In this document: piece after piece, positions 39,112 to 57,969 of the stretch
Layout of the letters: each line of letters begins with the position of its first letter
How positions within the stretch are numbered: the first letter of the stretch is position 1
NCBI RefSeq assembly: GCF_000315445.1
Contig: NZ_JH992957.1
Location: 169,047 to 233,046 of the forward strand
Direction of reading: 5' to 3'
Source: Alloiococcus otitis ATCC 51267
Lineage (GTDB): Bacteria > Bacillota > Bacilli > Lactobacillales > Carnobacteriaceae_A
Length of the DNA: 64,000 nucleotides
Program-made: the position numbers and the translations under genes
The notes under the pieces: model-generated
What the model saw: the letters and a program-made list of their open reading frames with translations, nothing else
Database searches by the model: none
What the model was told of the DNA's origin: nothing

Positions 39112-40524
39112 ATGGTTGTTGCAGACTTTACTGAAGAATTGGATACAGTAGTCATCGGGTCAGGACCCGGCGGTTACGTTGCAGCTATCCGGGCTGCCCA
39201 AGAAGGTCAAGATGTTACTGTCATCGAGCGAGAATTCATTGGCGGGGTGTGCTTAAACGTCGGATGTATCCCATCTAAAGCCCTCATCAATGCTGGCCAC
39301 AAATACCACGATGCGGTTGATTCTAAAGACTTAGGTATTACAACTGGAGACGTTGAGATTGACTTTACCAAGACTCAAAAATGGAAAGACAACCGAGTCG
39401 TTAAACGCTTGACCAAGGGTGTTGAAGGATTACTCAAGAAAAATGGTGTCAATATCATCATGGGCGAAGCTTATATCAATGGCCCTAACAAGTTAAGTGT
39501 TTCGACTGAAGATGGTAAACAATCTTACAGCTTCAACAACTTGATTGTCGCAACAGGATCTTCCCCAATTGAAATTCCTGGTTTCAGCTTCAAATCTGAC
39601 CGGGTATTGGACTCAACTGGTGCTTTAAACTTGGAAGAAATTCCAGAAAAACTAGTAGTTGTTGGTGGGGGTTACATTGGCTGTGAATTAGCTGGTGCTT
39701 ATGCCAACTTTGGTACTGAAGTGACTATCTTAGAAGGTGCAGACACCATTCTTGGCGGTTTTGACAAAGACATGGTTAAAATTGTCGAACGCGACTTCAA
39801 GAAAAACAAGGGCGTTGATGTCGTGACTAAAGCTAAAGCAAAATCAGCTGAAGAAACAGATTCAGGTGTCAAAGTCACTTACGAAGCCAAAGACGAAGAA
39901 AAAACCATCGAAGCTGACTATGTTCTTGTCACAGTTGGCCGTACCCCTAACACTGATGAACTTGGCTTAGAAGCTGCAGGCGTTGAATTGGACGACCGCA
40001 ACCTAGTCAAAGTAGACAAACAAGGCCGAACTAGTGTAGACTCCATTTGGGCTATTGGGGACATTGTGGCAGGTGCTGCTCTTGCCCACAAGGCTTCTTA
40101 TGAAGCAAAAGTTGCTGCTGAAGCTATCTCAGGCAAAAAAGTCGAAGTGGACTACAAGGCAATGCCTGCTGTTGCCTTTACAGACCCTGAAGTTGCTATT
40201 GCTGGTTACTCTGAGCAAGAAGCCAAAGATGCTGGCCTAGACGTTAAAGCAACTAAATTCCCAATCGGTGGGAACGGTCGTGCCCTATCTCTCAATGCGA
40301 CTGATGGCTTCATCCGCTTGATCACCACCAAAGAAGACAACGTCATCGTTGGTGGCCAAGTAGCAAGTGTTGGGGCTTCAGACATCATTGCGGAAATTGC
40401 CTTGGCAATTGAATCTGGCATGAACTTAGAAGATATTACCCTTACTGTTCACGCCCACCCAACCCTTCCTGAAGCTGTCATGGATACTGCTGAAGCAGCC
40501 CTAGACCAAGCAATCCACATCTAA
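39112..40524 (+). CDS. pdhD: Dihydrolipoamide dehydrogenase (E3)
   Basis: FAD/NAD flavoprotein that reoxidises the lipoyl groups. It is 470 aa. FAD motif [10 protein letters not shown] (17-26), redox disulfide CLNVGC (Cys47, Cys52), NAD motif [10 protein letters not shown], and the C-terminal HAHPTLPEA with the active-site His-Glu. Last gene of the pdh operon. Confidence 0.97.
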
Positions 40525-40547
40525 GTTTTGACTGAAGATAGGAATCG

Positions 40548-40579
40548 AAAACCACTGGGTTTAACCCAGTGGTTTTTTT
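40548..40579 (+). terminator. Terminator of the pdh operon
   Basis: AAACCACTGGGT and ACCCAGTGGTTT form a nearly loopless strong stem followed by a T tract. Confidence 0.93.
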
Positions 40580-40680
40580 ACATTCATGTGAGTTTAGATG
40601 ACAAGTTTTTTTCTAAAGGATAGCTGTGGTAAAATTGCTAGTAAATAGGCTGTATAGAGTTTCTAGAGAGGTGGTCAATT

Positions 40681-41463
40681 GTGACAAATTTAAATAAAGT
40701 ACATGATCTGGCGACTGCTTGGGTCAAAGAGGCAGGAAGTCAAATCGCTAGTCAATTGAACCAGGATTTGTCGGTGGAGACGAAAACGGGCCCCAATGAC
40801 CTGGTGACCAACTTAGATGTCCAAACCGAAAAATTCTTGACCGGGAAGATCAGGGCAAACTTCCCCAACCATAGGATTGTAAGTGAGGAAGGTTTTGGCG
40901 ACAAGCTGAGTGACTTAAAGGGGCCAGTTTGGTTTGTTGACCCTATTGACGGGACTTTAAACTTTGTCAAGCAGAGGGAAAATTTCTGCATCATGTTAGC
41001 TTTTTATGAAGACGGGGTGGGGCAATTGGCTTACATCTATGACTTAGTGGGGGACCGCTTTTATCATGTCATCAAGGGCCAGGGTGCCTACTGCAATGAC
41101 AATCCTATTACAGGGCTTTTAGACCGAAGACTGGACCAAGGACTTTTGGCCTTTAATTCTAAGATCTTGATCGACTCTTCTCGGACCAAACTCCAAGGTC
41201 TGCTCGACCAGACCCTAGGCTTAAGGCTCTATGGGTCAGCTGGCATGGAGGCCATGGAAGTTCTCATGAGCCGGACGGTAGCCTATATTGCCTCTCACTT
41301 GAAGCCATGGGATTATGCTCCAGCAGCTGTATTTATGGCTGAAATGGGGGGCAAGCTAAGTGACTTCCAAGGCCAAGATCCAGATTTTCTAACGGAAAGT
41401 GAGATTATCATCGCCAACAAGCTGGCTCACCAAGAAATACTGGACCACTTGCATCAAAAATAA
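40681..41463 (+). CDS. Inositol monophosphatase family protein
   Basis: Mg-dependent, Li-sensitive-type phosphatase family, 260 aa. Metal-binding motifs: SEEGFG (Glu69, Glu70), DPIDGT (Asp87, Asp90) and WDYAPAAVFM (about 209). The substrate could be inositol phosphate, a sugar phosphate, or 3'-phosphoadenosine phosphate; motifs do not decide. It starts with GTG after AGAGAGGTGG. It is preceded by an extended -10 TGG-TAAAAT (40627-40635) and lies alone between pdh and typA. Confidence 0.88.
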   Translation: MTNLNKVHDLATAWVKEAGSQIASQLNQDLSVETKTGPNDLVTNLDVQTEKFLTGKIRANFPNHRIVSEEGFGDKLSDLKGPVWFVDPIDGTLNFVKQRENFCIMLAFYEDGVGQLAYIYDLVGDRFYHVIKGQGAYCNDNPITGLLDRRLDQGLLAFNSKILIDSSRTKLQGLLDQTLGLRLYGSAGMEAMEVLMSRTVAYIASHLKPWDYAPAAVFMAEMGGKLSDFQGQDPDFLTESEIIIANKLAHQEILDHLHQK

Positions 41464-41465
41464 TT

Positions 41466-41494
41466 TTGCAGTCCTTTGACCTAACTGATATAAT
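41466..41494 (+). promoter_or_regulatory. Promoter of typA
   Basis: TTGCAG (41466-41471), 17 bp, TATAAT (41489-41494). Confidence 0.75.
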
Positions 41495-41564
41495 ATTCTT
41501 GCTGTTTTATGACAGGTTAACAAGTAGTAGAAAGACATTGCCAAGATAAGTTGGAGGAAATTGT

Positions 41565-43394
41565 GTGAAAAAACGAGATGATATTAGAAATATAGCCATT
41601 ATTGCCCACGTTGACCATGGTAAAACGACCCTGGTTAACCAACTCTTGGAACAATCCGACACCCTAGATAGCCATACTGAAATTGGTGAACGGGCCATGG
41701 ATTCCGATGACATTGAAAAAGAACGCGGAATTACCATTCTAGCAAAGAATACGGCGGTCCAGTACGGGGACACCTTGATCAATATTTTGGATACCCCAGG
41801 CCACGCCGATTTTGGTGGCGAGGTAGAACGGATTATGAAAATGGTCGACGGGGTTATATTGATTGTAGATGCCTATGAAGGGACCATGCCCCAGACCCGG
41901 TTTGTTTTGAAAAAGGCTTTGGAACAAGACCTGCAACCCATTGTGGTGGTGAATAAAATTGACAAACCAACGGCTCAACCGGAAAAAGTGGTTGATGAAG
42001 TCTTAGACCTCTTGATTGAACTGGAAGCAGATGAAGACCAATTGGAATTTCCAGTGGTCTATGCTTCTGCCTTAAATGGGACTTCCTCTTTTTCAGACCA
42101 AGCTGGAGACCAAGAGGAGACCATGGACCCTATTTTCCAAACCATTCTCGACAAGATTCCAGCTCCAATCGACAACAGTGAAGAGCCTTTGCAATTTCAG
42201 GTTTCTCTATTGGACTATAATGACTACGTTGGTCGGATTGGGATTGGCCGGGTCTTTCGGGGAACCATCAGTGTTGGGGACAATGTTAGCTTGTCCAAGT
42301 TAGATGGGTCGGTCAAAAACTTCCGGGTGACCAAGCTTTTTGGCTACTTTGGCTTGGAAAGACGGGAGATCCAGTCTGCCAAGGCCGGCGACTTGATTGC
42401 CGTCTCTGGCTTTGAAGATATCTTCGTTGGCGAAACAGTTACCCCAACTGACCAAGTAGACCCCCTCCCAGTCCTCCATATTGACGAACCTACCTTACAG
42501 ATGACCTTCCTAGCCAATAATTCGCCTTTCGCTGGTCGGGAAGGCAAGTGGGTGACCTCCTCCAAAATTGAAGAGCGGCTTTTTACCCAGCTCCAAACCG
42601 ATGTTTCTTTAAGAGTTGACCAAACCGATTCGCCGGATGTCTGGAAGGTTTCTGGACGAGGGGAACTCCACTTGTCCGTTTTAATCGAGAATATGCGACG
42701 GGAAGGTTATGAACTCCAGGTCTCCAAGCCTGAGGTCATTACTAAAGAAATTGACGGGGTTAAGTGTGAACCCTTTGAACGGGTCCAAATTGACTCGCCT
42801 GAAGAGTACATGGGCAACATCATTGAAGCCCTAGGACAACGCAAGGGCGAGATGCTCGACATGGTACACACGGGCAATGGCCAAGTCCGGATTGTCTTCC
42901 AAGTGCCGGCCCGGGGATTAATTGGCTTTAGTAATGAATTTATGTCTATGACCCATGGCTACGGCATCTTAAACCACAGTTTTGATGAATATGCCCCAAT
43001 GGTCGAAGGCAATACCGGCGAACGTAAAAACGGGGCCCTGGTTTCCATGGAAAACGGCCAGGCGACCACCTACAGTATCATGAACCTTGAAGACCGGGGG
43101 ACCATTTTTGTTGAACCGGGGACGGAAGTTTATGCGGGTATGATCGTTGGGATGAATAACCGGGACAATGACCTGACCGTCAATATTATCAAGGAAAAAC
43201 AAAAAACCAATGTTCGGTCAGCTACCAAAGACCAAACTAGTGTTATTAAACGACCGAAGATTATGTCCCTAGAAGAATCTTTAGAATTTATTACTGACGA
43301 TGAATATGTGGAAGTAACTCCCGAATCCATCCGGCTCCGCAAGAAGATCTTGGACAAAAATACTCGAGAAAAAGCGAACAAGCGCAAGGGTTAG
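41565..43394 (+). CDS. typA: Translational GTPase TypA/BipA
   Basis: Ribosome-binding GTPase involved in ribosome assembly and stress tolerance. It is 609 aa. G1 AHVDHGKT (14-21), switch I with RGITI, G3 DTPGHADFGGE, G4 NKID. Domains II, III and V follow, and the specific C-terminal domain ends in a basic tail. GTG start with TTGGAGGAA five bases upstream. Confidence 0.97.
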   Translation: MKKRDDIRNIAIIAHVDHGKTTLVNQLLEQSDTLDSHTEIGERAMDSDDIEKERGITILAKNTAVQYGDTLINILDTPGHADFGGEVERIMKMVDGVILIVDAYEGTMPQTRFVLKKALEQDLQPIVVVNKIDKPTAQPEKVVDEVLDLLIELEADEDQLEFPVVYASALNGTSSFSDQAGDQEETMDPIFQTILDKIPAPIDNSEEPLQFQVSLLDYNDYVGRIGIGRVFRGTISVGDNVSLSKLDGSVKNFRVTKLFGYFGLERREIQSAKAGDLIAVSGFEDIFVGETVTPTDQVDPLPVLHIDEPTLQMTFLANNSPFAGREGKWVTSSKIEERLFTQLQTDVSLRVDQTDSPDVWKVSGRGELHLSVLIENMRREGYELQVSKPEVITKEIDGVKCEPFERVQIDSPEEYMGNIIEALGQRKGEMLDMVHTGNGQVRIVFQVPARGLIGFSNEFMSMTHGYGILNHSFDEYAPMVEGNTGERKNGALVSMENGQATTYSIMNLEDRGTIFVEPGTEVYAGMIVGMNNRDNDLTVNIIKEKQKTNVRSATKDQTSVIKRPKIMSLEESLEFITDDEYVEVTPESIRLRKKILDKNTREKANKRKG

Positions 43395-43396
43395 AC

Positions 43397-43424
43397 TTGT
43401 CCCGAGGACTCGATATGGTATAAT
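43397..43424 (+). promoter_or_regulatory. Promoter of ylaN
   Basis: TTGTCC (43397-43402), 16 bp, TATAAT (43419-43424) with an upstream TGG, an extended -10. It starts three bases after the typA stop. Confidence 0.7.
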
Positions 43425-43457
43425 GATTTCAAAGAGTAAAAAAGGAGGGCATGTGGT

Positions 43458-43727
43458 GTGGATAGTGTAAAAGTGCAATATACAAAGGATATTTTAATGG
43501 AAGATGCCAACCGCATTTCCAAATTAATCGAGAACCAGCGTCATTTGTGTGTTTCATGTCCAGCATTTGAAGAAGTGATCGATACACAATTGTTTGGCTT
43601 TTCTAAAAAAATTGAATTCGCCGTTCAAATGGATCTACTCCCAGAAGAAGACGGGCACCAAATGATGGCTGACTTGGAAAAACATTTAAATGATGTCTAC
43701 AACCATGCCGTTGACCAAGACGAGTAA
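43458..43727 (+). CDS. ylaN: YlaN family protein (UPF0358)
   Basis: 89-aa helical protein with the family segment NQRHLCVSCPAFEEVIDTQLFGFSKK. In S. aureus and B. subtilis YlaN binds Fe(II) and relieves repression by Fur, which links it to iron homeostasis. It starts with GTG, eight bases after AAAGGAGGG. Own promoter and terminator. Confidence 0.92.
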   Translation: MDSVKVQYTKDILMEDANRISKLIENQRHLCVSCPAFEEVIDTQLFGFSKKIEFAVQMDLLPEEDGHQMMADLEKHLNDVYNHAVDQDE

Positions 43728-43741
43728 ACACAAGTTAAGAG

Positions 43742-43767
43742 AGCCCTCATGAACAGAGGGCTTTTTA
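43742..43767 (+). terminator. Terminator of ylaN
   Basis: AGCCCTC and GAGGGCT with a seven-base loop, followed by TTTTATTAT. Confidence 0.88.
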
Positions 43768-43803
43768 TTATATTAGAAGTGGGCTGGAGAGGAGTTTGGC
43801 GAC

Positions 43804-44124
43804 ATGGACAATATAGAAAGAAAGCGCCAGGGAATTATTGTATGGCTGTACACGCCCAAGTATTTAAACCAATTAAGTCAGTATGGGACCTTGCATTATG
43901 TTTCCAAGAAGATGAAGTATGCCCTCTTGTACGTGGAGAAGAAGAAGCTAGATAAGGTGAAGTCCCAACTCATTAAACTGCACTTTGTTAGAAGTATCGA
44001 AGACTGCCACTACCAGGACTTGACAGCAGACTATAGTGGCTTGTTGGAGGAGTTAGACCAAGAGGCCAAGGCCAAAAATGAGGAAGATAGTGGACTGAAG
44101 TTGTTCTCACAATTAGATTATTGA
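43804..44124 (+). CDS. ylbG: YlbG family protein (DUF2129)
   Basis: 106-aa protein with RQGIIVWLYTPKYLNQLSQYG and YALLYVEKKK typical of DUF2129. Function unknown. The order ylbG-rsmD-coaD is the common Firmicutes arrangement. RBS AGAGGAG nine bases upstream. The C-terminal 25 residues are acidic and poorly conserved. Confidence 0.9.
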   Translation: MDNIERKRQGIIVWLYTPKYLNQLSQYGTLHYVSKKMKYALLYVEKKKLDKVKSQLIKLHFVRSIEDCHYQDLTADYSGLLEELDQEAKAKNEEDSGLKLFSQLDY

Positions 44125-44133
44125 GGTGGATGT

Positions 44134-44688
44134 ATGCGAATTATTGCTGGAAAATATGGTGGACGGCCACTCAAGGCTGAGGTAAGTGAAGAGACCCGGC
44201 CGACCAGTGACCAAATTAAGGAATCGGTTTTTAACCTGATCGGCCCTTATTTTGAAGGAGGCTTAGTCTTAGACCTATATGCAGGGACCGGGGCCCTTGG
44301 CATTGAGGCAGTCTCTCGTGGCATGGATAAAGCCTACCTGGTTGATGCTGACGCTAAGGCAGTCAAATCAATTCAAAAAAATATCACCATTACCAAGGAA
44401 GAAGACAAGTTTTATCCGTATCGTTCGCCAGCAGCCAAGGCTTTAATGACCTTTAAGCACAAGCAATTGGCCTTTGACCTCATTTTCCTAGACCCTCCCT
44501 ACCAAGACGACCAAATCATTGGCGATATCGAGGAAATGGTCAAGCAAGAAATGGTTAAGCCTGGTGCCTTGATTGTCTGTGAGACCAAGTATGACTCCCA
44601 AATGCCAGAGACCATTCGAGATTTAACTATTTACAAGCAAAGAAAGTATGGGACCACCCTTATCACTATTTATGAAAGGAAAGCTTAA
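44134..44688 (+). CDS. rsmD: 16S rRNA (guanine966-N2)-methyltransferase
   Basis: SAM-dependent methyltransferase, 184 aa. N-terminal RIIAGKYGGRPL, SAM motif VLDLYAGTGALGIEA (about 47-61) and catalytic DPPY (about 127-130). Its base composition is like the rest of the core region, in contrast to coaD, whose ATG follows the stop codon directly. Confidence 0.95.
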   Translation: MRIIAGKYGGRPLKAEVSEETRPTSDQIKESVFNLIGPYFEGGLVLDLYAGTGALGIEAVSRGMDKAYLVDADAKAVKSIQKNITITKEEDKFYPYRSPAAKALMTFKHKQLAFDLIFLDPPYQDDQIIGDIEEMVKQEMVKPGALIVCETKYDSQMPETIRDLTIYKQRKYGTTLITIYERKA

Positions 44689-45171
44689 ATGAATCGCGCA
44701 ATCTATGCAGGCAGTTTTGATCCGATTACTAAGGGGCATATGGATATTATCAAGCGAGCGTCAAAAATATTTGATGAAATAATAGTTGCAGTAGCTAATA
44801 ATACTTCAAAAAACAGTATGTTAGATCTTGACACTAAGTTAGTATTAATTAATCAGTCAGTACGAGGTCACAAACTAGAAAATGTATATGCAACTAAATT
44901 AGAAACTGGTTTAATTGTAGATTTCGCTAGAGAAAAAGATGCTAAAATCCTCATAAGAGGTCTTAGATCTGTTAAAGACTTTGACTATGAGTCTTCTATT
45001 GAGGATTTGAACAAGGTTCAAGATCCTAACATTGAAACAGTCTATTTATTATCATCAGCTAGACATCGTTCAATAAGTTCTACAGTAGTTAGAGAAATTA
45101 TTCAATTTGAAGGACAAATTGAACAATTAGTACCTAAGCCAGTTGTAGATTACTTTCAAAAGAATAAATAA
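44689..45171 (+). CDS. coaD: Phosphopantetheine adenylyltransferase (mosaic gene)
   Basis: Fourth step of coenzyme A synthesis. It is 160 aa, normal. Nucleotidyltransferase motif GSFDPITKGH (8-17), ISSTxVR-type end (SISSTVVRE). It appears functional. The first 72 bases match the composition of the upstream genes (the line 44701-44760 has 26 G+C of 60), whereas the next line has 14 of 60 and many ATA, AGA and TTA codons. The switch comes just after the conserved GH motif, which suggests recombination inside the gene. Confidence 0.93.
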   Translation: MNRAIYAGSFDPITKGHMDIIKRASKIFDEIIVAVANNTSKNSMLDLDTKLVLINQSVRGHKLENVYATKLETGLIVDFAREKDAKILIRGLRSVKDFDYESSIEDLNKVQDPNIETVYLLSSARHRSISSTVVREIIQFEGQIEQLVPKPVVDYFQKNK

Positions 45172-45409
45172 TAATAATTGGAATTAATGCTCGCCATACT
45201 AGTGTGAAATAGTTTGGTAATTTTAATTCCATTATATTAATCTCTTTAAACCATGATGTAAATTATCACAATATAAGACGGTTTTCCTTCACTTTTTTAG
45301 ATTTATAGTTAGTAGTGAACAAAAGAGCTAGTACTTCTTTGTTTTTGGGAGGCTTATATTATCTTTTTAGATTTTTGGAACTTTATTTTTATTTGAGTTA
45401 GCTCATTAA

Positions 45410-45455
45410 AAAGGCCAGATCGAACATTATTAATCCAATGTTTGATCTGGCTTTT
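45410..45455 (+). terminator. Hairpin in the coaD-oppA gap
   Basis: AGGCCAGATCGAACATT and AATGTTTGATCTGGCTTTT form a long stem with one mismatch. The remainder of this 408-bp gap (45,172-45,579) is AT-rich; I see an extended -10 TGC-TATATT at 45542-45550 for oppA and no gene. Confidence 0.8.
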
Positions 45456-45579
45456 AGTATTATCTTTAACTTTATTATTACATTTCAATACGTTAATTTT
45501 ACAATTTCAGCTGTTTGATTTACCTTACGTTAAAAATCATATGCTATATTGAATTAGTCAAATATAGGAGGTATGAAAA

Positions 45580-47154
45580 ATGAAAGAAAACTTGAAAACT
45601 TTATTGTTAGTCACGGTGCTTCTTAGTACATATGGATGTAGTAATAATTCAGATCAATCACAAGATCAACAAGCCGATCAGACTCAAGACGAACAAACTG
45701 AGCAAACTGAAGACCAACAAGCTGATCAATCCCAAGAACAGCAAATAGTAAAAATATCAAATTCTTCAGAAATCGATTCACTAGACAATCATAGATCTGA
45801 AGCAACTGAAACAGGAAAAATGTTAGACCAAATACATGACGGTTTAGTTGATTATGATACTGCCGGTGATATAATACCAGCTTTAGCTGAAAGCTGGGAA
45901 ATTTCTGAAGATGGTTTGACTTACACTTTCCATTTAGTAGAAAATGCAACTTTTCATAATGATGATCCTGTTACTGCCCAAGACGTTGTAGCCTCTTATA
46001 GCCCATTGGCAGGTTTAGATGGCGAAGAACCATTAAGTTCAAAATGGGAAGTAGTTGAAAGTGTAACAGCAGTAGATGATTTTACTGTGGAAATAGTTTT
46101 AGAAAGTCCTGATTCTGGATTCTTAGCTCGAACTACTTCAGGTATTCGTCCTGAAGGATATGAAGATCAGGCTAATCATCCAATTGGTGCCGGTCCATTT
46201 AAGTTTGTTGAATGGAATCAAGGAGAAAAATTGGTTATGGAAAAATTTGACGGGTACTACGATCAAGAAAATATGCCTTCTATAGACGGGGTCGAATGGT
46301 ACTTAATGGAAGACTCTTCAACTGCTATGTTAGCCTTACAAACCGGAGAAATTGATATTACTAATGTTTCTTTAGAAGAAAAAGAAACGCTAGGTGAAGA
46401 ATACAACTATATTGAAGGTCCAATGAACATGGTGACAGTTTTTGGTCTAAACCATGAATTTGAACCTTTTTCTGACGAGAGAGTTCGTCAAGCTATGAAT
46501 CATGCCATAAATAAACAAGAGTTAATAGACATTGTTTTCCAAGGAGAAGCTACTGAATTAGGCTCCATGTTTTCACCAGTTATGGAGTTGTACTATCAAG
46601 AAGGTCTTCAAGATAAATGGCTATATGATCAAGATAAAGCCAAAGATTTATTGGCCGAAGCCGGTTATGAAGATTTAGAATTCACATTGAAGGCTCCTAG
46701 TCATGCTCAAATGTATGCAGATATGGCTCAAGTAATTGCAGATCAACTAGGTCAAGTAGGTGTGACAGTGAATATTGAAATGATAGAATGGTCTACCTGG
46801 TTAGAAGATGTTTATACCGATTTTAATCATGAAGCTACAATAATTGGTTTGACAGGGAAAATTGATCCATATGATGTTCTAATTCGCTTTGTAGATGGCT
46901 ATCACAGAAACTTCATAAATTATAATAATGATAACTATAATCAAGCTATGGAAGATGCTGTACAAGAGATTGATGATGATAAGCGTATTGATCACTACAA
47001 AGAAGCTCAAACTTTGCTAGCTGATGATGCTGCTTCAGTATTTTTGGCAGACCCATATCGTATTACTGCTACAAAATCACACATTGAAGGGTTAGAAATG
47101 TATCCCGATGAAAAATTAAACCTTGAAGATATTGAATTCGTTAATACTCAATAA
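45580..47154 (+). CDS. oppA: Oligopeptide-type ABC transporter substrate-binding lipoprotein
   Basis: 524-aa SBP family 5 protein. Signal peptide 1-19 with lipidated Cys20 (STYGC, a weak lipobox), then a Gln/Asp/Glu-rich linker (21-55) and the binding domain (LAESWEISEDGLTYTFHL near 105). Substrate may be a peptide, nickel chelate or other; motifs do not decide. The ATG at 45580 has AGGAGG eight bases upstream. Start of a low-GC block with oppB, C, D, F and a phosphoesterase. Confidence 0.88.
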   Translation: MKENLKTLLLVTVLLSTYGCSNNSDQSQDQQADQTQDEQTEQTEDQQADQSQEQQIVKISNSSEIDSLDNHRSEATETGKMLDQIHDGLVDYDTAGDIIPALAESWEISEDGLTYTFHLVENATFHNDDPVTAQDVVASYSPLAGLDGEEPLSSKWEVVESVTAVDDFTVEIVLESPDSGFLARTTSGIRPEGYEDQANHPIGAGPFKFVEWNQGEKLVMEKFDGYYDQENMPSIDGVEWYLMEDSSTAMLALQTGEIDITNVSLEEKETLGEEYNYIEGPMNMVTVFGLNHEFEPFSDERVRQAMNHAINKQELIDIVFQGEATELGSMFSPVMELYYQEGLQDKWLYDQDKAKDLLAEAGYEDLEFTLKAPSHAQMYADMAQVIADQLGQVGVTVNIEMIEWSTWLEDVYTDFNHEATIIGLTGKIDPYDVLIRFVDGYHRNFINYNNDNYNQAMEDAVQEIDDDKRIDHYKEAQTLLADDAASVFLADPYRITATKSHIEGLEMYPDEKLNLEDIEFVNTQ

Positions 47155-47279
47155 TTTAAAAACTTTAATTAAGAGAGTAGCACCAAGATCAATGTATTCA
47201 TTTCAGGGATTTAAACTAGCTGTCGTCTCAACTGGAAGCATTCAAGCATACTAATGTTAGAGAAAATGAAAGTGATTTT

Positions 47280-47316
47280 TGATATAGGGACTTGCCGAGT
47301 GTAAGTCCCTATATCA
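47280..47316 (+). repeat. Perfect 14-bp inverted repeat between oppA and oppB
   Basis: TGATATAGGGACTT (47280-47293) and AAGTCCCTATATCA (47303-47316), nine-base loop. No T tract follows on either strand, so it is more likely an mRNA 3'-end stabiliser for oppA or a partial terminator. The gap has no gene. Confidence 0.7.
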
Positions 47317-47435
47317 TTACAAAAAATAAAGAATAAATTATATCCTATTTGTTTAGCATAATATCTTTATTATTCATTAGATGGTCTAAAGTTATAACTT
47401 TTAGCAGATAAGTTTTATATTAGTTGGGGGTTATT

Positions 47436-48383
47436 ATGAAAATTATTGTGAAGAAAATTATGACTACTATAGTTACCTTGCTTTTAGTATCTATTATAAT
47501 TTTTCTTATGTTTAATGTTCTACCAGGCAATCCAGCCCAGTCTATATTAGGCATTGATGCAGATCCAGCACAAATTCAAAATTTGGAAATTGAACTTGGC
47601 TTAGATAGGAATTTACTTGAGCGTTATTTTGAATGGTTAGTAAACTTATTCAGTGGTGATTTAGGTATTTCTTATCGTTATCAACAACCTGTAGCTGACA
47701 TAATTTCTTCTCGATTGCCAGTAACTGTTTCTTTAACAATTTACTCATTTGTTATCACTTTAATATTTGCTATTCCCCTTGGACTTTTTATTTCTCGTTA
47801 TGAGGGTACAATGATGTCTACTATCGTTTCATTAATTACTCAATTAGGAATTTCTACACCATCCTTTTGGTTAGGATTCTTACTTATCTATTTTTTTGCA
47901 TATAAATTAAATCTTTTTCCCACGTTTGGGTACATCCCATTTCGTGATAATTTTGTTGGAGGATTACAATCTCTTTTTCTACCGTCACTTGCGATAGCTA
48001 TTTCCAATATTGCTGTTATTATTCGCTACTTATCAAATTCTGTATCTGATCAACTTAGTCAAGATTATGTTACTACTGCTATGGTTAAAGGGGCTTCAGA
48101 CGGACGAATAATGTATCGGCATGTATTGAAGAATGCATCTCTTCCTGTAATAACGATTATAGGATTAATGGTTGCCGATACTCTTGGAGGTTCTATCATA
48201 ATAGAAAATGTCTTTGCTTTACCTGGATTAGGGTCTCTACTTAATGCATCAGTAGAATCAAGAGATTTTCCGTTAATTCAATCACTAGTAATGTTTATAT
48301 CGATAATTATCATTGTAACTAATCTAGTGGTAGATATTGTTTATAATCTAATTGACCCACGTATTAAACTAGGAGGCAAGTAA
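47436..48383 (+). CDS. oppB: ABC transporter permease OppB/DppB type
   Basis: 315 aa, six predicted membrane helices (first at about 9-31) and the BPD_transp_1 domain. The EAA-like loop (DYVTTAMVKGASDGRIMYRHVLKNA) that contacts the ATPases is present. Typical N-terminal LPGNPA motif of OppB/DppB. The ATG at 47436 follows GGGGG. It is 280 bp after oppA, and its stop overlaps oppC by one base. Confidence 0.9.
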   Translation: MKIIVKKIMTTIVTLLLVSIIIFLMFNVLPGNPAQSILGIDADPAQIQNLEIELGLDRNLLERYFEWLVNLFSGDLGISYRYQQPVADIISSRLPVTVSLTIYSFVITLIFAIPLGLFISRYEGTMMSTIVSLITQLGISTPSFWLGFLLIYFFAYKLNLFPTFGYIPFRDNFVGGLQSLFLPSLAIAISNIAVIIRYLSNSVSDQLSQDYVTTAMVKGASDGRIMYRHVLKNASLPVITIIGLMVADTLGGSIIIENVFALPGLGSLLNASVESRDFPLIQSLVMFISIIIIVTNLVVDIVYNLIDPRIKLGGK

Positions 48384-49195
48384 TGAAAGGTACTCGTGAC
48401 TATAACCTTTATATTGGTACAATTATTATTATTGGCTTACTTATTATTACACTTGTTAGCTTTGTTTGGACCCCGTACCCTCCTAATACCATAGGAGTCG
48501 GGCCTCAGTTACAAGGACCCTCATTTGATCATTTGCTTGGGACTGATAACTTTGGTAGGGACATTCTTAGTCGTATTATGGATGGATCCCGTACAGTATT
48601 TTTGATTGGAATATTGTCGGTAGCTATTGGTCTTATTGGTGGTCTAATTATAGGATCCATATCCGGCTTTTTTGGAGGTTGGGTAGATGAAGTTATTATG
48701 AGGCTTAATGATGCTATGATGGCGATTCCTGGTATATTATTTGCAATTATGCTAGTTTCAATTTTTGATGCTGGGCTATCTAACACAGTTCTTGCTTTAG
48801 GAATACCAAGAATTGCAACGTTTACTAGAGTAATTCGTGGAGGCTTTCTCCAAGTCAAAAATTATGATTTTGTAAAATCAAGTCGTATAAAAGGGGCAAC
48901 AAACTGGCACATAATTAGCCAACATCTATTACCTAATATTATGACTCAAATTATCGTAGCGACAACTTTGTCTTTCTCTGGAACAGTACTGTCAGAAGCA
49001 GGTTTGTCTTATTTGGGCCTTGGAGTGCAACCGCCTGATGCATCGTGGGGTAGAATGTTATCCGAAGCTCAACCTTTTATTGTATCTGCACCCTGGTATA
49101 TTATTTCAATTGGTATTATTATCACTCTCTTGGTATATGGCTTCAATCTTCTAGGAGACGGGATCCGTAAGTTGCAAGATAAGAGAGGTATCTAA
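48383..49195 (+). CDS. oppC: ABC transporter permease OppC/DppC type
   Basis: 270 aa. It has an N-terminal membrane helix, the LGTDNFGRDILSRI motif typical of OppC/DppC, and the cytoplasmic EAA loop VKSSRIKGATNWHIISQHLLPN. RBS AGGAGG lies in the end of oppB. It forms the transmembrane channel with OppB. Confidence 0.92.
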   Translation: MKGTRDYNLYIGTIIIIGLLIITLVSFVWTPYPPNTIGVGPQLQGPSFDHLLGTDNFGRDILSRIMDGSRTVFLIGILSVAIGLIGGLIIGSISGFFGGWVDEVIMRLNDAMMAIPGILFAIMLVSIFDAGLSNTVLALGIPRIATFTRVIRGGFLQVKNYDFVKSSRIKGATNWHIISQHLLPNIMTQIIVATTLSFSGTVLSEAGLSYLGLGVQPPDASWGRMLSEAQPFIVSAPWYIISIGIIITLLVYGFNLLGDGIRKLQDKRGI

Positions 49196-49197
49196 AA

Positions 49198-50352
49198 ATG
49201 TCTGAAATATTAAACATAAAAAATCTTTCTTTGGATTTTAAAATACAAAATCAGTTGTATCCAGCAATTTCCAATGTTGATATGAGCGTGAAAAGTAAAG
49301 AAATAATTGGCATCGTAGGTGAGTCAGGATCAGGCAAGTCATTAACAGCTAAAACTATTATGGGCATTGCACCTAACAATGCCCATATCGATTACGAAAT
49401 TCTTAATTATAAAGGTAAAGATATTAATCAAACCTTGAAAAAAAACAGAAAAAATATTCAAGGCAAAGAAATTTCTATGATTTTTCAAGACTCTGGGTCA
49501 GCACTCAATCCTTTAACAAGAGTGGGAAAACAGATTCAAGAAGTTTTAAAGATCCATAAAATTAACAGTAAAGATCAACGTAAGAGGATGACTATGGATC
49601 TTTTGGGAGATGTTGGATTTCCAGATCCCCAAAGTATTTACAGAAGTTTTCCCCACGAATTATCTGGGGGAATGAGACAAAGAATTATGATATGTATGGC
49701 TTTAATTGCTGAACCTGATCTCATAATTGCTGATGAACCAACAACTGCATTGGATACTACTATTCAAAAACAGATTCTTGATATTTTATATCGTTTAATT
49801 CGTGAGAAAGAAAAGTCTATGATTATTATAACACACGATTGGGGAGTAATTAACGAGATGTGTGATAGGGTGTATGTTATGTATGCAGGTAAAGTAGTTG
49901 AAGAAGGTTCAGTAGAGCAAATAGTTCACCATCCACGTCATTCATACACTAAGGCACTTTTGAAAGCTATACCTTCTCTGAAAAGTAAAGGTCACCCTTT
50001 ATTTTACATTCCTTTTAAAGTTTCATCAATAACCGACAGACGTCATGGAGAGTGGCCCTACTTGGAATTTAGTAAAAGTAATGAAGAGTATATACGAAAG
50101 AATTTTCCTGAATTTATAATTGAAGAGTATAAATCTTCAAAAACTGCTAGTGGAAATTCCAAAGATGATAATAAAGACAAACTTACTAGAAGTTTAGCCC
50201 AAGATTCGAAAGAAGAAAAAAGCAATGGCCATGCTTCTTTACCTAACTATTCTGATAAGGCCAAAGCAGATACAATAATTCATCAAGTTCCTGACCTACC
50301 AAATTTAAATAATAAATCAGTTAAAGAAAAGCGGGATCTAGAGGAGGATTAA
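49198..50352 (+). CDS. oppD: ABC transporter ATP-binding protein OppD type with long tail
   Basis: 384 aa. Walker A GESGSGKS (41-48), signature LSGGMRQR, Walker B LIIADEPTTALD and the oligopeptide C-terminal HPRHSYTKALLKAIP (about 242-256). After about residue 285 there is a further 100-residue charged, Lys/Asp/Ser/Asn-rich, low-complexity tail ending in EKRDLEED. OppD proteins normally end after about 330-350 residues with a cysteine-rich FeS-type segment; I see no Cys cluster here. The start is two bases after oppC. Confidence 0.88.
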   Translation: MSEILNIKNLSLDFKIQNQLYPAISNVDMSVKSKEIIGIVGESGSGKSLTAKTIMGIAPNNAHIDYEILNYKGKDINQTLKKNRKNIQGKEISMIFQDSGSALNPLTRVGKQIQEVLKIHKINSKDQRKRMTMDLLGDVGFPDPQSIYRSFPHELSGGMRQRIMICMALIAEPDLIIADEPTTALDTTIQKQILDILYRLIREKEKSMIIITHDWGVINEMCDRVYVMYAGKVVEEGSVEQIVHHPRHSYTKALLKAIPSLKSKGHPLFYIPFKVSSITDRRHGEWPYLEFSKSNEEYIRKNFPEFIIEEYKSSKTASGNSKDDNKDKLTRSLAQDSKEEKSNGHASLPNYSDKAKADTIIHQVPDLPNLNNKSVKEKRDLEED

Positions 50353-50353
50353 G

Positions 50354-51145
50354 ATGGATAAAATACTACAAGTGAAGAATCTCAATAAAACATTTACCTC
50401 AAATTCCTTTTCACTTTTCAGTGCTCCAAAAGCAGTAGTTGCTGCTAACAATATTACGTTTGATATTAATCGTGGAGAAAGTTTCGGATTAGTGGGTGAG
50501 TCTGGTTCTGGTAAATCTACAATAGCAAACATTATAGCACGTTTACTTCCGCCAGATTCCGGACAAATACTATTTAACGGACAAAATATATTTAAATCTA
50601 AAGGGAAAGAAGCTCGGAATTATTATCGTAATTTACAAATGGTTTTTCAAGATCCCTATGCTACACTAAATCCCCGTAAGACCATTGGTTGGAGTATTGG
50701 AGAAGCATTAAGGAATTTTGGGGATATTTCTCGGGAAGAAGTTAAACAACGAGTTGTAGAAGCATTAACCGATGTGGGACTCAATAGTTCATACTATGAC
50801 CGTTATCCTCATAATCTAAGTGGGGGACAGCGTCAACGTGTGGCTATAGCTTCTACCATAATATTACGTCCTGAATTAATTTTAATTGACGAAGGTGTGT
50901 CAGCTTTAGATGTGTCTATTCAAGCAGCAATTTTAAATCTTTTAAATGATCTAAAAAAGAAATATAAATTAACCTATTTATTTATTTCTCATGATCTAAA
51001 TGTTATAGAGTACTTTTGTGATCGAGTTGCTGTAATGTATCGTGGAGACCTTATAGAGGTTTTTGATCCTTCAGTGACATCTGTTGAAGATAGATCTGAC
51101 TATACTAGAAAATTATTTGATTCTATCCCTCAGATTTATCTTTAG
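50354..51145 (+). CDS. oppF: ABC transporter ATP-binding protein OppF type
   Basis: 263 aa. Walker A GESGSGKS (48-55), VFQDPYATLNPR Q-loop, LSGGQRQR. Walker B reads LIDEGVSALD: the usual proline after Asp-Glu is glycine. The catalytic glutamate is present, so activity is probably kept. It lacks the full oligo_HPY extension (ends about 10 residues after SDYTRKL), which is common in shorter paralogues. RBS GGAGG at the end of oppD. The phosphoesterase ATG is 13 bases after the stop. Confidence 0.9.
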   Translation: MDKILQVKNLNKTFTSNSFSLFSAPKAVVAANNITFDINRGESFGLVGESGSGKSTIANIIARLLPPDSGQILFNGQNIFKSKGKEARNYYRNLQMVFQDPYATLNPRKTIGWSIGEALRNFGDISREEVKQRVVEALTDVGLNSSYYDRYPHNLSGGQRQRVAIASTIILRPELILIDEGVSALDVSIQAAILNLLNDLKKKYKLTYLFISHDLNVIEYFCDRVAVMYRGDLIEVFDPSVTSVEDRSDYTRKLFDSIPQIYL

Positions 51146-51282
51146 AGAGGAATTTGACATGCGTATAGGATTCGTTTCAGATATACACATTGACCAAATA
51201 CCTCTCGAAGGTACTGAAGTATTAAAGCTATTTGGATATTGGATTAAGAAAAATAACCTTTCTCACTTTGTTATCGGCGGAG

Positions 51283-51287
51283 ATATT
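51283..51287 (+). repeat. IS21 target-site duplication, left copy (ATATT)
   Basis: Matches 53439-53443. It lies within codons 42-43 of the phosphoesterase. Confidence 0.88.
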
Positions 51288-51373
51288 TGTCAAGGGCAGT
51301 TTAAAATTGTAGGTTTTCGGCAAGATAAAAATGTAGGTTTTTGGCAATTCAATTGTAGGTAATCGGTAGTTTT

Positions 51374-52102
51374 TTATTTCATTCGGTATGATTTTCCAGT
51401 GATCTTGAATACCTTCACGTGATGTACCAGACGGTCAAGTATCGCTGCCGCAATCTCTGAGTTCTGAAATAATTCCCCCCAACGGGATAACACAATGTTG
51501 GTTGTTATGACAGTTGAATTCTTTTCATACCGCATCGTCATTAGTTGAAAGAATAAGTCTGCTTCAATCTTTTGAATAGGTAAGTAGCCAATCTCATCAA
51601 TGATAAGCAAGTCATAACGTGCATAACGTTTTAATACGCGCTCTTCTGTCCCTTTTTCAAAAGCTGAACGAAGACGTAAAAGTAATTCATGACAACTAAT
51701 AAACAATGTACGATAGCCTTGGTGGCAAGCTTCAATCCCTAAGGCAATTACCAGGTGGGTCTTACCCACACCTGGATTACCAATAAATACAAGGTTTTCT
51801 TTCTTTTCCATAAAAGCCATATGTTTGAGGTCAATGATTTCGTTTTTATTAATACTTGGTTGGAAATCAAAGTCAAACTCCTCTAAAGAAGTTCTTTTGG
51901 GGAAATGAGCGCGCTTAATCACACGTTCAATCTTTTGGTTCTTTTGATAGTGTAGTTCTTGGTTTGTCAGTTCTAATAGAGCCTCAGTTAAAGAAATTTC
52001 ATTTTTGTTTGCGACATCGATATAATTGGGCACATATTCTCGCATATGGTTTAAATTGAGTTCTTCTAGATTATATAAGAGTTTTTGATAAGCGCTACTC
52101 AT
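51374..52102 (-). CDS. istB: IS21 helper ATPase IstB
   Basis: DnaC-like AAA+ ATPase that helps IstA choose target DNA. It is 242 aa from the ATG at 52102, which has GGAGGAG seven bases upstream. Walker A GNPGVGKTH, Walker B LLIIDEIGYLP, and C-terminal LDRLVHHVKVFKITG. It overlaps the end of istA by 8 bp, as usual for IS21. Confidence 0.94.
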   Translation of the reverse strand: MSSAYQKLLYNLEELNLNHMREYVPNYIDVANKNEISLTEALLELTNQELHYQKNQKIERVIKRAHFPKRTSLEEFDFDFQPSINKNEIIDLKHMAFMEKKENLVFIGNPGVGKTHLVIALGIEACHQGYRTLFISCHELLLRLRSAFEKGTEERVLKRYARYDLLIIDEIGYLPIQKIEADLFFQLMTMRYEKNSTVITTNIVLSRWGELFQNSEIAAAILDRLVHHVKVFKITGKSYRMK

Positions 52103-53333
52103 TCGTTGGCTCCTCCAAAAAGTCATACTGTTTTAAACTATTTTCAATATAGGACTGAATATCATCTTCATCCTTATGACTTAGGACATCAGATTTTAGA
52201 ATTTGAACCATATCATCATAGTTATAATTCAATGGTTTCTCCGTTAATAAGTGCGAACGGATGCGTTCTCCGTTATAATAGATGTGCACGTGCGATTCGT
52301 TATCGGAAAGGGCTAATTCAACTTCTTTTCCAATATAACGAGGATCTACCGAGTACCTACATTTGCGGAACAGAACCATCGCTTCCTTTGTGACTTTACG
52401 GCAAATAGAGTCATTGAAATATGGCGTTAATAGGTTTTCTGGTAGCTCATGTAGGTGCTCTTTTTCTTTATCCTTCCATAGGAAATAGGGTGTTTCTCCT
52501 GTAGCTTGAGACACTTCCCGATTAAGGTCGTGGCAAAGCATATCTACGATGTGGATAAGGTCTGTACTATCATGGAATTCATGATTATAGACACGTAATC
52601 GTTCAACTGTTCGGGCAAGTGCTTCCACACTTCCTTTTGTTTGAGGGCGAAATGGACGGCAGACCATCGTTCTAAACCCTGCATCTTTACTAAATGCATA
52701 GAATCGTTCATTCAATTGTACTTTTGAAAACTGAGTTCTTGATTGATCGACAACTGTTTTCATATTATCAAACCAAATTTCTTCTGGAACGCCACCGGTA
52801 TGTTTAAAAGCCTCATTTAAACACTGAAATAATGTATCTTGTTTGCGGTCAAACGTCAGTGTTATAAACTTCATTTTTGAAAATGGCAATACATAGAGAA
52901 AAATATTAAAGCAAATAATTTCTCCTTGTTCACTGATAAGATGTATGTTTTCTTTCCAATCAACTTGAGCAGAAAGACCCGGCGTATGTTCAACACGGAT
53001 CGTCGCTTTCTTGACTCGCTCTTTCTTTAACTCACGACAGTAAGTTTTTACCAAACTATAGCTGCCATCAAAACCTTTCTTCTCAATAAATCGGAAGATA
53101 CTATAGGCACTACAGTGGCCTTCTAGCTTTTCGTGAATCATGTTTTTAAACGGATCCAGTTTGCTTCCACGTTTCTTACGAGGAGAGGTTGAGCTTTCTC
53201 CTTTCAATGCTTCATGATAGGCTGCCTTAACCGTGCGGTAATCGCACCCAAATTGTTGAGCTAAAGCAGAAAAATTAGGTTTAATACCGTCTATCATATA
53301 TTTTTTCACTCCTTCTCGAATATCTCTTCTCAT
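52095..53333 (-). CDS. istA: IS21 transposase IstA
   Basis: 412 aa. N-terminal helix-turn-helix (FSALAQQFGCDYRTVKAAY), a central rve domain with Asp in AQVDWKEN, Asp in IWFDNMKT and a Glu in the TKGSVEALARTVERLR region, and a C-terminal Mu-like domain. The frame is intact. RBS GGAGGT six bases upstream. Confidence 0.93.
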   Translation of the reverse strand: MRRDIREGVKKYMIDGIKPNFSALAQQFGCDYRTVKAAYHEALKGESSTSPRKKRGSKLDPFKNMIHEKLEGHCSAYSIFRFIEKKGFDGSYSLVKTYCRELKKERVKKATIRVEHTPGLSAQVDWKENIHLISEQGEIICFNIFLYVLPFSKMKFITLTFDRKQDTLFQCLNEAFKHTGGVPEEIWFDNMKTVVDQSRTQFSKVQLNERFYAFSKDAGFRTMVCRPFRPQTKGSVEALARTVERLRVYNHEFHDSTDLIHIVDMLCHDLNREVSQATGETPYFLWKDKEKEHLHELPENLLTPYFNDSICRKVTKEAMVLFRKCRYSVDPRYIGKEVELALSDNESHVHIYYNGERIRSHLLTEKPLNYNYDDMVQILKSDVLSHKDEDDIQSYIENSLKQYDFLEEPTNE

Positions 53334-53438
53334 CCCAATACCTCCATTTCTAAAGGGATAAGAAGAGTATATAAAAAATGTAGGAAAACCAACAATTTTA
53401 AATTGCCGTTTTCCTACATTTTATAGCTGCCGTTTACA

Positions 53439-53443
53439 ATATT
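53439..53443 (+). repeat. IS21 target-site duplication, right copy (ATATT)
   Basis: Copy of 51283-51287. Confidence 0.88.
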
Positions 53444-54082
53444 TCAAATAATTGGAAAGTCTCTTGTCATTTTGTTCAAGATCTTCAAGATACAACAGGT
53501 GTCCAAGTTTATTTTATTCCCGGTAACCATGATTATTGGTCCCAAAATACGGAAGAACCACAATTATATGATCAAATAGATACTTGGAGTATTTATAGAA
53601 AATTATCTAAACACCCACAATGCTTGTTAGAGAAATCTATTTGGCTTAGCGATCAACTTGTCTTGGTAGGACACTCTGGTTGGTATAATCATGCATATAA
53701 AGGATCCAAGGATAATGGAAATATCTTTACAGAGCAAGAGTTGGAGAAAGGTGAATATAATGAACGAACATGGCAAGATAAGATATTTGTGAATTGGAAA
53801 ATGTCTGACCGGGATACTTCAAAGATTATGACTAATAAAGTTAGAAACCAACTTGAAAGGTTAAAAAATGATTTTACTAAATCATTCGAAAAAGAAGAAC
53901 TTCAAGTTATTCTTGTGACACATATGGTTACAATACCTGAATTTTGCGTTCCAATGCCTCACCAAGAATTTGACTATTTTAATGCATTTATAGGTACAGA
54001 CGATTTTGATGAATTAATTAAGGACCATCCAATCCTGTATAATTTTATGGGACATGTTCACTATCGAAGTGAACTAATTGTA

Positions 54083-54089
54083 GGGGGGG
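54083..54089 (+). repeat. G7 homopolymer tract with frameshift
   Basis: Seven G in an otherwise AT-rich gene. One G fewer would join the phosphoesterase frame to its natural C-terminus. Confidence 0.75.
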
Positions 54090-54409
54090 ATTTCATTTAT
54101 TGTTAACTGCTTAGGTAACTATGAGGAATGGAGAAGCAGCGATTTAATAGCGGAGCTCCAAGATGCAGCTTTTATTCTAGAAATTGATTAAGTAGATAAT
54201 ATTAATAGCGAAAAAATAATATCATTTTTATTTAGAATTATAATGATATGTATTCCCTAAATATAAAATTTTAAAATATTAACTAGTAAATTTAAAGTAT
54301 ATATAATATGAATCAGATCAAACAAAAATTTACACAATATTAACTTGTATAAGGTAGTTGCTTTCATAATCATTTAGTAAAATAAGGTTATTAAAAAGGA
54401 GTGATAATA

Positions 54410-57400
54410 TTGAAAAACAAGAAATTCATTATTTGGTCGACAGTTACCATTGCTGGGCTTTTAAGTTTAAATGCTGTAGAACAAGTTTCTGCCGAAGACT
54501 TAGGCCAAGACCAAGGACAAATGCCGGATTCAGACTCCGGAGCAAGCTTAGATCTTCCTCTAGAGGGCCAAGCCATCGACCAAGGTCAATCAAACCAAGT
54601 CGAAGAAAGTAATTTAGAAGTAACCATTTACCCAAGTGACCAAGGTGAAAGTGGTGGGGTAGAGGTAGAAACGGTCCAACTTAGTCAACCAGATAAACCA
54701 GATGATGTAAATACAGCTGATGATTCATTTGAACTTAAAGATAATCCGGCTGATAGCAAAGTTGTCTCAGGTCAGTCAGAAAACTCTGAAAATAGTGACG
54801 AGGTAGAAGAAAAAAAGAGAGAAATTCTAGAATTCTCTGCCCCAATAGATGAAGAAAAAGCTTACGTTGAAGCCAACACCCCTGACCCACAACCAGGCTT
54901 TAGGGTTCTTCCTTACTTACAGAAACCTTCTAGCGATTCTATGAGAATATCTTGGATTTCTGAACTAGGCTCTCCAGCCCGTATAACCTTGAAAGCCGGG
55001 GGGAAGCAAGTTTCACAGCAAGTTATTGAACCCCAGTACATGGAGATCATGGAATATACTCGGGCTGAAGTAGACGAAAACATCTCACATGCTGGCAAAA
55101 CACTACCAAAAGGTGAGTGGTTATATTCTAACAGTAACTACAAGTACGATGCTGACTTTGATAAGTTAGTCCCTAACACCGAGTATACATATATGATTGA
55201 AATGGATGGGCAAAAATATCAAAACACCTTCAAAACCTTTCCGACCAAGGATGATTGGGACCACATCCGACTAGCAGCATTTTCAGATACTGAAACTGAA
55301 CCTAAGGGTGCTATTGAGCAAAGAGAATGGGAGCTTCACACCACTAATCCTTACACTTCTGAGTCTGAACCCCGTCCAGGACAGGGATCTGACTTTGCTG
55401 AGAAGCATGGTGCTTCAACCCGTAACGATATGTTCTTGGTGAACTACCCGATTGACCAGCAAACAGCTTTGAATGAAAACTTGGCCCACCTAGCTGAAGC
55501 TAATTTGGATGCCCTCTTAATTGCAGGAGACCTTACCCAGGGATCTGGTTACCAACCTGCCTGGGACGAATTTTGGCGCCATTTTGCGGGAAATTTCAAC
55601 GACTTTGCTTCCAATGTTCCCCTAATCACTGCCTTGGGTAACTGGGAGACTACTGCCGCCCTAAGTGGAGACTACGGGTCACAAGCTGACCGAAGTCCTG
55701 TGGTAAAAGCTAGAAATAGATACCACGCCTACATCTCTACTCCTGACTACCCAGGACACGAACAACATAAGTCTTCTTACTACCGGACTGACATTGGACC
55801 AATTACCATCTTGACCCTTGATTCTACTAATGGCTTGCCAGATGAAGATGTCAACCAAGGCATGCTGACTGGTGAGAAATACACTGGTGATGACAGTATC
55901 TTGCAAGAAGAATTATGGTACAAGGGAAAGGAGTATGATCCTTACATTACAACTGATACCCAAGGATCCTTTACAGCTGAAGAATATGCCAATGCCTACC
56001 CAAAAGTTTTTCCTGGAACTAGTCCGGAAGATTCTGACCTTCCAGCTTTCAATCCAGGTAGTCTTCAGTGGAAGTGGGCTGTTGAACAATTGCAAGATGC
56101 CCGAGAAAAAGGTCAAATCATCGTTGTCCAATTCCACCATGCTCCGTATTCTTCTGGTGTCCACGGTATGGCTCCAAACTTCTCCGAACCAGACAACCAG
56201 TCAGGGGTTGCCATGCGGGTTTACTCGCCACTATTCGAAAAATATGGTGTCAGTCTAGTTATCGCCGGTCACGATGAAATGTTTGAACGGTCATTTGTAG
56301 ACCTTGATGGTGATGGTCGAGGCTTCCATGTTTACGATGTTGGGGTAGCAGCGGATGGTCTCCGCGGTGAAAAAGTTGTCAGGGATGAGGAAGGCAAGCT
56401 AGTTCCATTGAACTTCAACACCTACTCCCAGTGGTCTGCAACTGCTAATGAACCTGAGACTTGGCTAACCAATGAAAACGGGGTTAAGCACCTAGTGGAT
56501 GGCGGCTTACACTATGGTCACCTACAAATTGATTTAGTTCGGACAGACTACGGTTCTAAAATGATCCTCCAACCGGTCTACCTTTTCCCAATCTTAGATG
56601 ATGACTACAATTTTGTCAGAACTGAACGTCGAGTATATGACGATGTAGTAGTGATGCACTTTGACCACGATGGCCTAGAAATTATCGATTTCCAAGAAGA
56701 GTTCACCTTTAAATTTATCAACTCAACTACTAAAGGCAGCACTAGTTTTAAGTCTCCTAGCATTGGAGAAGCCAAAAAATACTTCGACCAGTACGCTAAA
56801 GAAAGTGGTTTAGGTGACCTAGTCTGGACCTTTGATCCTGACAGTAGAACTTTTACAGCAGTTGGTCAAGATGTAATTGGCAAAACGATTGCTGACATAG
56901 ACGAATCCGTTTACAACTTCCTTGCACCAACTCCTGATTGGTCTCCTTCAGAAGAAGATCAAGATGAAGAAGATAGTATATATCCAATTGAAGGAGAGGC
57001 TTCAGTAGACTCAGTCTACGACTTCCAAGCACCAAGCTTTGAATGGAACACTGATCAAGAAATTCCAGATCAATTAAAAGTTTATACACTAGTTTACATT
57101 ACCCAAAATACTAGGGGCAAAAATGGAGCGACAACTGTTAAAGCGGGTAATCCGGAAGAAGCTGAAAAATACTTCCGCAACTGGGCTAGTGAAAATGGTT
57201 TAGGTGACTTAGATTGGGCCTATGACGAAAGTAGCCGAACCTTCACAGCGAGAGAAAAAGTTGAACAAGCTACTACCATTGAAGGAGAAAGTTCAGTTGA
57301 CGCGGTTTATGACTTCTTAGCACCAGACTTTATATGGAATACTGACCAAGTGGATTCAGGAACAAACCAACCGGGTCAAGAAAGTTCTGACCAAAAAGAT

Positions 57401-57757: not shown

Positions 57758-57812
57758 CCAGATGTATAAAATTTTAGCCTAACGAGTTACTTTCTATTAA
57801 AGATTGCTAGCT

Positions 57813-57857
57813 ACCAGTCATGGCCTTATCCCAAGATAGGTCTATGGCTGGTTTTTT
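57813..57857 (+). terminator. Terminator of the surface protein gene
   Basis: ACCAGTCATGG...CTTATC and GATAGG...CTATGGCTGGT form a long interrupted stem followed by TTTTTT. Confidence 0.85.
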
Positions 57858-57969
57858 ATCGCATTTTGAAAAGGATTAATGACAAATTAATAATTTTAAT
57901 TTTCTAGCAAAAAATAAAAAATGGATTTTTTTGCGTATTAATAGTTAGGACAGAAAAGGAGGGTGATCC

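Follow-up and report, generated by a model that had tools for sequence, protein, structure and literature searches.

Composition break at coaD in Alloiococcus otitis: a probable crossover of an AT-rich opp island in the conserved 5' end of a housekeeping gene

Introduction

The coaD gene is generally regarded as essential, and in Alloiococcus otitis ATCC 51267 it lies where DNA of host composition gives way to an AT-rich block. The question raised by this locus is whether the AT-rich DNA begins beside coaD or inside it and, in the second case, whether most of the gene was replaced when the neighbouring DNA arrived. An earlier note, made from the letters alone, read the gene as a mosaic in which an incoming AT-rich segment had recombined near codon 25, just after the conserved TKGH motif. 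Here we analyzed composition, codon use and gene content in a stretch of 64,000 nucleotides from one contig (hereafter the window), and compared rsmD, coaD and the genes that follow them with their counterparts in related and distant genomes.

Results

A composition step at the start of an AT-rich block

The G+C count fell from 26/60 at positions 44701-44760 to 14/60 at 44761-44820, the same exact values that the earlier note had obtained by hand, and 60-base lines with 14 G+C or fewer made up 0.4% of those in 1-44688. When rsmD and coaD were considered together, the likelihood change-point in G+C was 44762, with a 2-lnL interval of 44586-44773. When the stretch was widened to 40000-50000 or 42000-48000, the optimum moved to 44620, within rsmD, with 2-lnL intervals that extended to 44767 and 44768 and still covered codon 25 of coaD. 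The right change-point of the AT-rich state had a 2-lnL interval of 54409-54524 or 54416-54502, depending on the stretch considered. A composition step is present at the rsmD/coaD junction, and the low G+C to its right is continuous with the AT-rich block, whose features are collected in Table 1.

Table 1. Features at the rsmD/coaD junction and in the AT-rich block (positions in the window)
Feature	Position	Strand	Characteristics
rsmD	44134..44688	+	ORF of host composition, GC 45.1%, GC3 0.478; last gene ahead of the block
coaD codons 1-24	44689..44760	+	GC 44.4%, GC3 0.458, log-odds +3.4; GSFDP and TKGH motifs; host-like codon use
coaD codons 25-160 and stop	44761..45171	+	GC 29.4%, GC3 0.154, log-odds -38.3; AT-rich, island-like codon use
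AT-rich spacer, coaD to opp operon	45172..45579		26% GC
OppA-type solute-binding protein (SBP_bac_5)	45580..47154	+	Pfam PF00496
OppB-type permease	47424..48383	+	Pfam PF00528, PF19300
OppC-type permease	48383..49195	+	Pfam PF00528
OppD-type ATPase	49198..50352	+	Pfam PF00005, PF08352
OppF-type ATPase	50354..51145	+	Pfam PF00005
Phosphoesterase gene split by IS	51159..54106	+	5' piece ~51159-51303, 3' piece ~53440-54106 (PF00149; pieces translated apart)
IS21-family istB and istA coding region	51374..53333	-	Pfam IstB_IS21, rve, Mu-transpos_C_2
Right block edge, at surface-protein gene start	54409..54524		Change-point, best 54434

The block (44762-54433) extended over 9.7 kb with a G+C content of 33.9% vs. 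44.5% elsewhere in the genome, and this foreign composition over several genes is in keeping with a horizontally acquired genomic island. In a reference sample of 240 kb, taken as twelve stretches of the genome (GC3 0.486), 0/160 genes of at least 150 codons had a GC3 of 0.20 or lower and 3/160 were below 0.30; GC3 of the opp genes ranged from 0.19 to 0.27. These genes constitute a complete transporter operon, for which the best NCBIfam models were those of dipeptide, glutathione and nickel transporters, none of them above its cut-off. The best-scoring match of OppA in 295 genomes of the order reached 34%, and in the phylum (398 genomes) matches at E < 1e-85 came from 21 other genomes (34-43%), all 21 outside the class of the host; in plasmids it was at most 36% among the matches listed.

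No integrase was found among the scanned proteins of the block (ORFs of at least 90 amino acids), where the recombinase genes found were the IS21-family pair; no tRNA gene was found in the window, and repeats near the block edges were weak (e.g., 27 nt at 74%). An integrase-driven island (ICE or chromosomal island) was set aside on these three grounds, and an RNA element was set aside in view of the lack of Rfam matches in 43000-58000.

Three further observations were made in this genome. The gene at 54413-57754 encodes a large protein that is secreted and, as read by eye, ends close to an LPDTA sorting-like motif; its domains are PF00149 (calcineurin-like phosphoesterase) and, twice, PF01378 (protein-G-type IgG-binding B domain; 2 stretches, E 2.4e-51). 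A second AT-rich stretch (locus L145, 4001-8000; 34-35% GC per 2 kb) encodes a secreted-looking protein with a GC3 of 0.216 and without Pfam match. The ORF list also contains a transposase-like ORF at 15345-16286 of the window, in DNA of host composition.

The interval after coaD in the family

The coaD-comEA interval was read in six loci of the family (G003, G004, G006, G007, G008, and G009). In all of these except G006, coaD was followed directly by sepM and then by comEA-comEB-comEC-holA, and an opp operon of the present kind was absent before comEA; two weakly similar ABC ATPase genes (22-28%) occurred in the interval of G004. G006 carried other genes downstream of coaD. In the host, the island and the surface-protein gene lie between coaD and comEA. 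The interval after coaD is a variable place in this family. A search for sepM in the host genome (G000), made with the SepM of one relative instead of the family model, gave only a 19-bit partial match, and the gene was not found in G001 (85% complete), G005, or G006 either. That the event at coaD directly caused the loss of sepM was set aside, and this loss need not belong to the arrival of the island, because these three relatives also show no sepM.

Codon use and the place of the break

Synonymous codon choices were scored as log-odds, host minus island, with a host model built from 36 genes of the window and an island model from the five opp genes. The tail of coaD (codons 25-160) scored -38.3. 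In 8841 host stretches of equal length the score never fell below -0.9; these stretches overlap one another and were drawn from the training genes of the host model. The GC3 of the tail, 0.154, was close to that of the opp genes (0.224; Fisher P = 0.067) and well below that of rsmD (0.478), so that the AT-rich, opp-like codon use that the earlier note had attributed to most of coaD was confirmed. Codons 1-24 did not differ in GC3 from rsmD (P = 1.0) and differed from codons 25-160 with P = 0.0016, a value obtained with a cut chosen from the same sequence.

The best break from synonymous choices alone fell between codons 24 and 25, and thus coincided with the G+C change-point for rsmD plus coaD. 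Breaks before codon 26, codon 27 or the seventh-last codon of rsmD were within 1.5 lnL of the best. Codons 1-24 exceeded the remainder of the gene by 15.0 points in G+C, compared with a mean of 2.5 and a maximum of 13.1 in 73 other coaD genes; for GC3 the contrast was 30.4 points, compared with a mean of -3.0 and a maximum of 26.0. In the AT-rich subset (31 of the 73) the means were 4.8 for G+C and -0.3 for GC3. The composition of the conserved N-terminal motif as the sole cause of the step was rejected, since the contrast exceeds that of 73/73 homologous genes. When coaD was recoded with island codon use, a prefix as host-like as the one observed, with any end up to codon 60, appeared with P = 0.024, and with the prefix fixed at codons 1-24 the value was P = 0.0034; the former is the fairer figure because the cut at codon 24 came from an inspection of the same sequence. 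Under host codon use, the observed value of the prefix or a lower one had P = 0.22. A break within the first ~27 codons of coaD is therefore favoured without being proven, on evidence that comes from 24 codons, and a break close to the end of rsmD is possible instead.

The second of these placements belongs to another account of the locus, according to which the whole of coaD came with the island, the left crossover fell at the start codon or late in rsmD, and the host-like codons 1-24 reflect chance together with the conserved motif. The wider G+C scans agree with it through their best point in rsmD, as does the break before the seventh-last codon of that gene, at 1.5 lnL below the best, and as protein, codons 1-24 were not more host-like than the rest. 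The start codon as the place of the break was 3.4 lnL worse than the best one, and the account has to accept both the low probability of such a prefix in an island-recoded gene and a contrast above that of all 73 homologues. We consider it unlikely, while retaining it as the first of the competing explanations.

Comparison of rsmD and coaD with their relatives

The difference in G+C between rsmD and coaD was 13.4 points in the host, whereas it was below 6 points in the 22 family loci; across 62 loci of all groups it averaged 0.3 (sd 3.6) with a maximum of 7.2, and some rows of this set, taken from short loci, were rsmD fragments, one of which gave the minimum of -18.9. Low G+C in coaD shared with relatives, which the earlier note had named as an observation that would speak against its reading, was not seen in either set, and that objection therefore fails. 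The best identity to the family was 11.4 points lower for coaD than for rsmD, the largest shortfall among 23 genomes; for the median identity the difference was -5.0 points, with 6/23 genomes more extreme, and the host was no outlier. Nucleotide identity to the family averaged 67.8% in codons 1-24 (67.5% in 195 ordinary family pairs) and 52.4% in codons 25-160 (54.8% in the ordinary pairs). Residue 7 of CoaD was Ala, as in 13/24 family rows, the other 11/24 having Val; Pro was present in 46/49 non-family rows of that alignment, and Ala was also common at this position in CoaD genes of family f5.

Origin of coaD

In the rsmD tree the host paired with its relative G006 (support 100/97), whose TypA was 86% identical to that of the host. 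Full-length coaD joined the same relative in a tree of 74 rows (95/89) with an end branch of 1.28, and codons 25-160 did so with 95/55 and an end branch of 1.52; for these careful trees 11/85 rows had been dropped (the partial gene L116 and ten near-copies). No supported placement of full-length coaD was obtained among 84 rows (a quick tree that left out L116) or 93 rows (20/113 rows dropped; L152, one of 29 f5 loci, was omitted as a near-copy of L010), and AU tests rejected none of the coaD placements tried (P from 0.255 to 0.615). Since the coaD trees disagree and the AU tests reject nothing, no origin is claimed from them. Codons 1-24, with 24 residues, offer too little signal for a phylogeny. 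The two origins that separate phylogenies of the parts had been expected to reveal were not borne out, codons 25-160 having no firm place.

Profile scores of codons 25-160 were highest for the family of the host (159 bits), followed by other families of the order (142 bits) and a mostly clostridial set (136 bits); in the control, 21/24 left-out family members scored highest on their own group. Codons 1-24 gave 57.1, 52, and 62.6 bits, respectively, which is within the spread of the test. The tail of CoaD also equalled the family genes in length where most other rows were shorter. Grouping of both parts with relatives of the host, which the earlier note had considered contrary to its reading, was thus found for the tail, codons 1-24 remaining within the spread; if it held for both parts, either the donor was AT-rich and close to the family, or no replacement took place. 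As judged from sequence comparison, the data are compatible with an AT-rich donor close to the family of the host and do not show a remote one. A single donor fits poorly, because the tail scores as the family of the host and OppA does not look native to the order.

These results bear on the explanation that coaD was inherited vertically, evolved fast and drifted towards AT, the island merely adjoining it. The trees of 74 rows, in which coaD joined the rsmD sister of the host on a long end branch, are in line with this, as are the family-like profile score and length of the tail; nevertheless, the pairing with G006 was lost with more rows, and the low G+C is sharp at one end, goes with an opp-like codon use and was seen in 0/160 sampled genes. 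We regard vertical drift as improbable.

The best protein match of CoaD overall, at 51%, came from genus g13, which shares the order of the host but belongs to a different family; matches in the family of the host reached up to 50%, and those in more distant groups 46-48%. Genome searches covered 60 relatives, among which no other genome of the genus appeared, 398 phylum genomes (searched twice), 395 genomes from the order, and a choice of 31 from f5. A peptide-pattern scan over 84,980 species yielded 7 coaD loci, with identities of 37-45%. No coaD at 60% or more was found in plasmids (46% for the best among the matches listed), and plasmids compared with a 10.2-kb query matched only in short stretches of its IS part. 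Phages searched by DNA and viral contigs searched by peptide patterns gave no match. The donor of coaD and the block was found in none of these searches (species-wide pattern scan, genomes, plasmids, phages, and viral contigs), and coaD adjoined this opp operon in no other locus examined.

The coaD product

The CoaD protein scored 183.1 bits against the equivalog model TIGR01510 (cut-off 103.3), which identifies it as pantetheine-phosphate adenylyltransferase. A single coaD was found in the genome, with an intact reading frame. The gene presumably supplies the coenzyme A of the cell, because it is in frame, matches the equivalog model and is the sole copy found; its activity and essentiality in this host are predicted from family membership and copy number. 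That DNA of another organism was wrongly joined into the contig is hardly credible: the genome is a draft of 8 contigs, yet two false joins would be needed, one of them keeping coaD in frame, and the own coaD of the host would then be expected elsewhere.

Discussion

We think it probable that the opp island was acquired in the interval downstream of coaD, that its AT-rich source is an unsampled bacterium, and that the left crossover fell within the conserved 5' part of this gene. Horizontal transfer would have brought in an AT-rich donor segment that recombined into the coaD-comEA interval, a variable one, and this segment would have carried a copy of coaD on its left, followed by an opp-type operon and a phosphoesterase gene. 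The left crossover would most likely lie at about codons 24-27, so that the host would have kept rsmD, the start site and some 24 codons, codons 25-160 being of donor origin; the right end would lie just upstream of the surface-protein gene or in its signal-peptide region. The IS21-family element interrupts the phosphoesterase gene and may have arrived later. We infer the joint travel of the donor coaD and the opp genes, the exact crossover, and homologous recombination as the mechanism, the last because no integrase was found among the scanned proteins, the edge repeats are weak, and the step lies where the gene is conserved. The crossover may have used the TKGH region. From the earlier proposal of an AT-rich segment recombined within coaD and replacing most of it, the block starting at coaD stands and a break in the first ~27 codons is favoured, whereas two origins could not be recovered by phylogeny.

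A bolder and rather doubtful version of this acquisition is that the housekeeping gene was rebuilt in one step between very divergent copies, a host start being joined to a foreign catalytic body with the opp operon brought along. This may have been a homeologous exchange on ~70 conserved bases, with about half nucleotide identity beyond codons 1-24. Such divergence is far beyond that usually thought to permit homeologous exchange. If the acquisition of the island through coaD is true, a housekeeping gene was overwritten as a passenger of an accessory operon and a foreign island can gain entry through a brief conserved segment of a core gene, which would also explain misleading single-gene trees of such neighbours.

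Core genes that turn mosaic beside exchanged islands are already known, and the present locus would be a new example. The likeness to gnd, by the O-antigen cluster (PMC2884935, PMC6696633), would be that of a core gene beside a variable cluster turned mosaic by crossovers within it. SpyCI (PMC4129442) is a chromosomal island inserted by an integrase in the 5' end of mutL. The likeness is an island that starts inside or beside a conserved gene; the coaD block differs in having no integrase among its scanned proteins and only weak edge repeats. A literature search on horizontal transfer and recombination breakpoints of phosphopantetheine adenylyltransferase gave no papers.

At the pneumococcal capsule locus, the neighbouring pbp genes are likewise mosaic, through crossovers that exchange the cluster. 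Exchanges at gnd and pbp join close relatives at high identity; coaD is unlike them, with 51% protein identity to the best match found and an unsampled donor. The missing donor, the divergence and the housekeeping nature of the gene are what is unusual here. In homology-facilitated acquisition, which occurs in competent bacteria, non-homologous DNA gains a foothold at one end through a conserved stretch. The proposed event resembles it in the use of a conserved stretch as an anchor at one end, and differs in that a housekeeping gene, coaD, would provide this anchor with about 70-80 bases.
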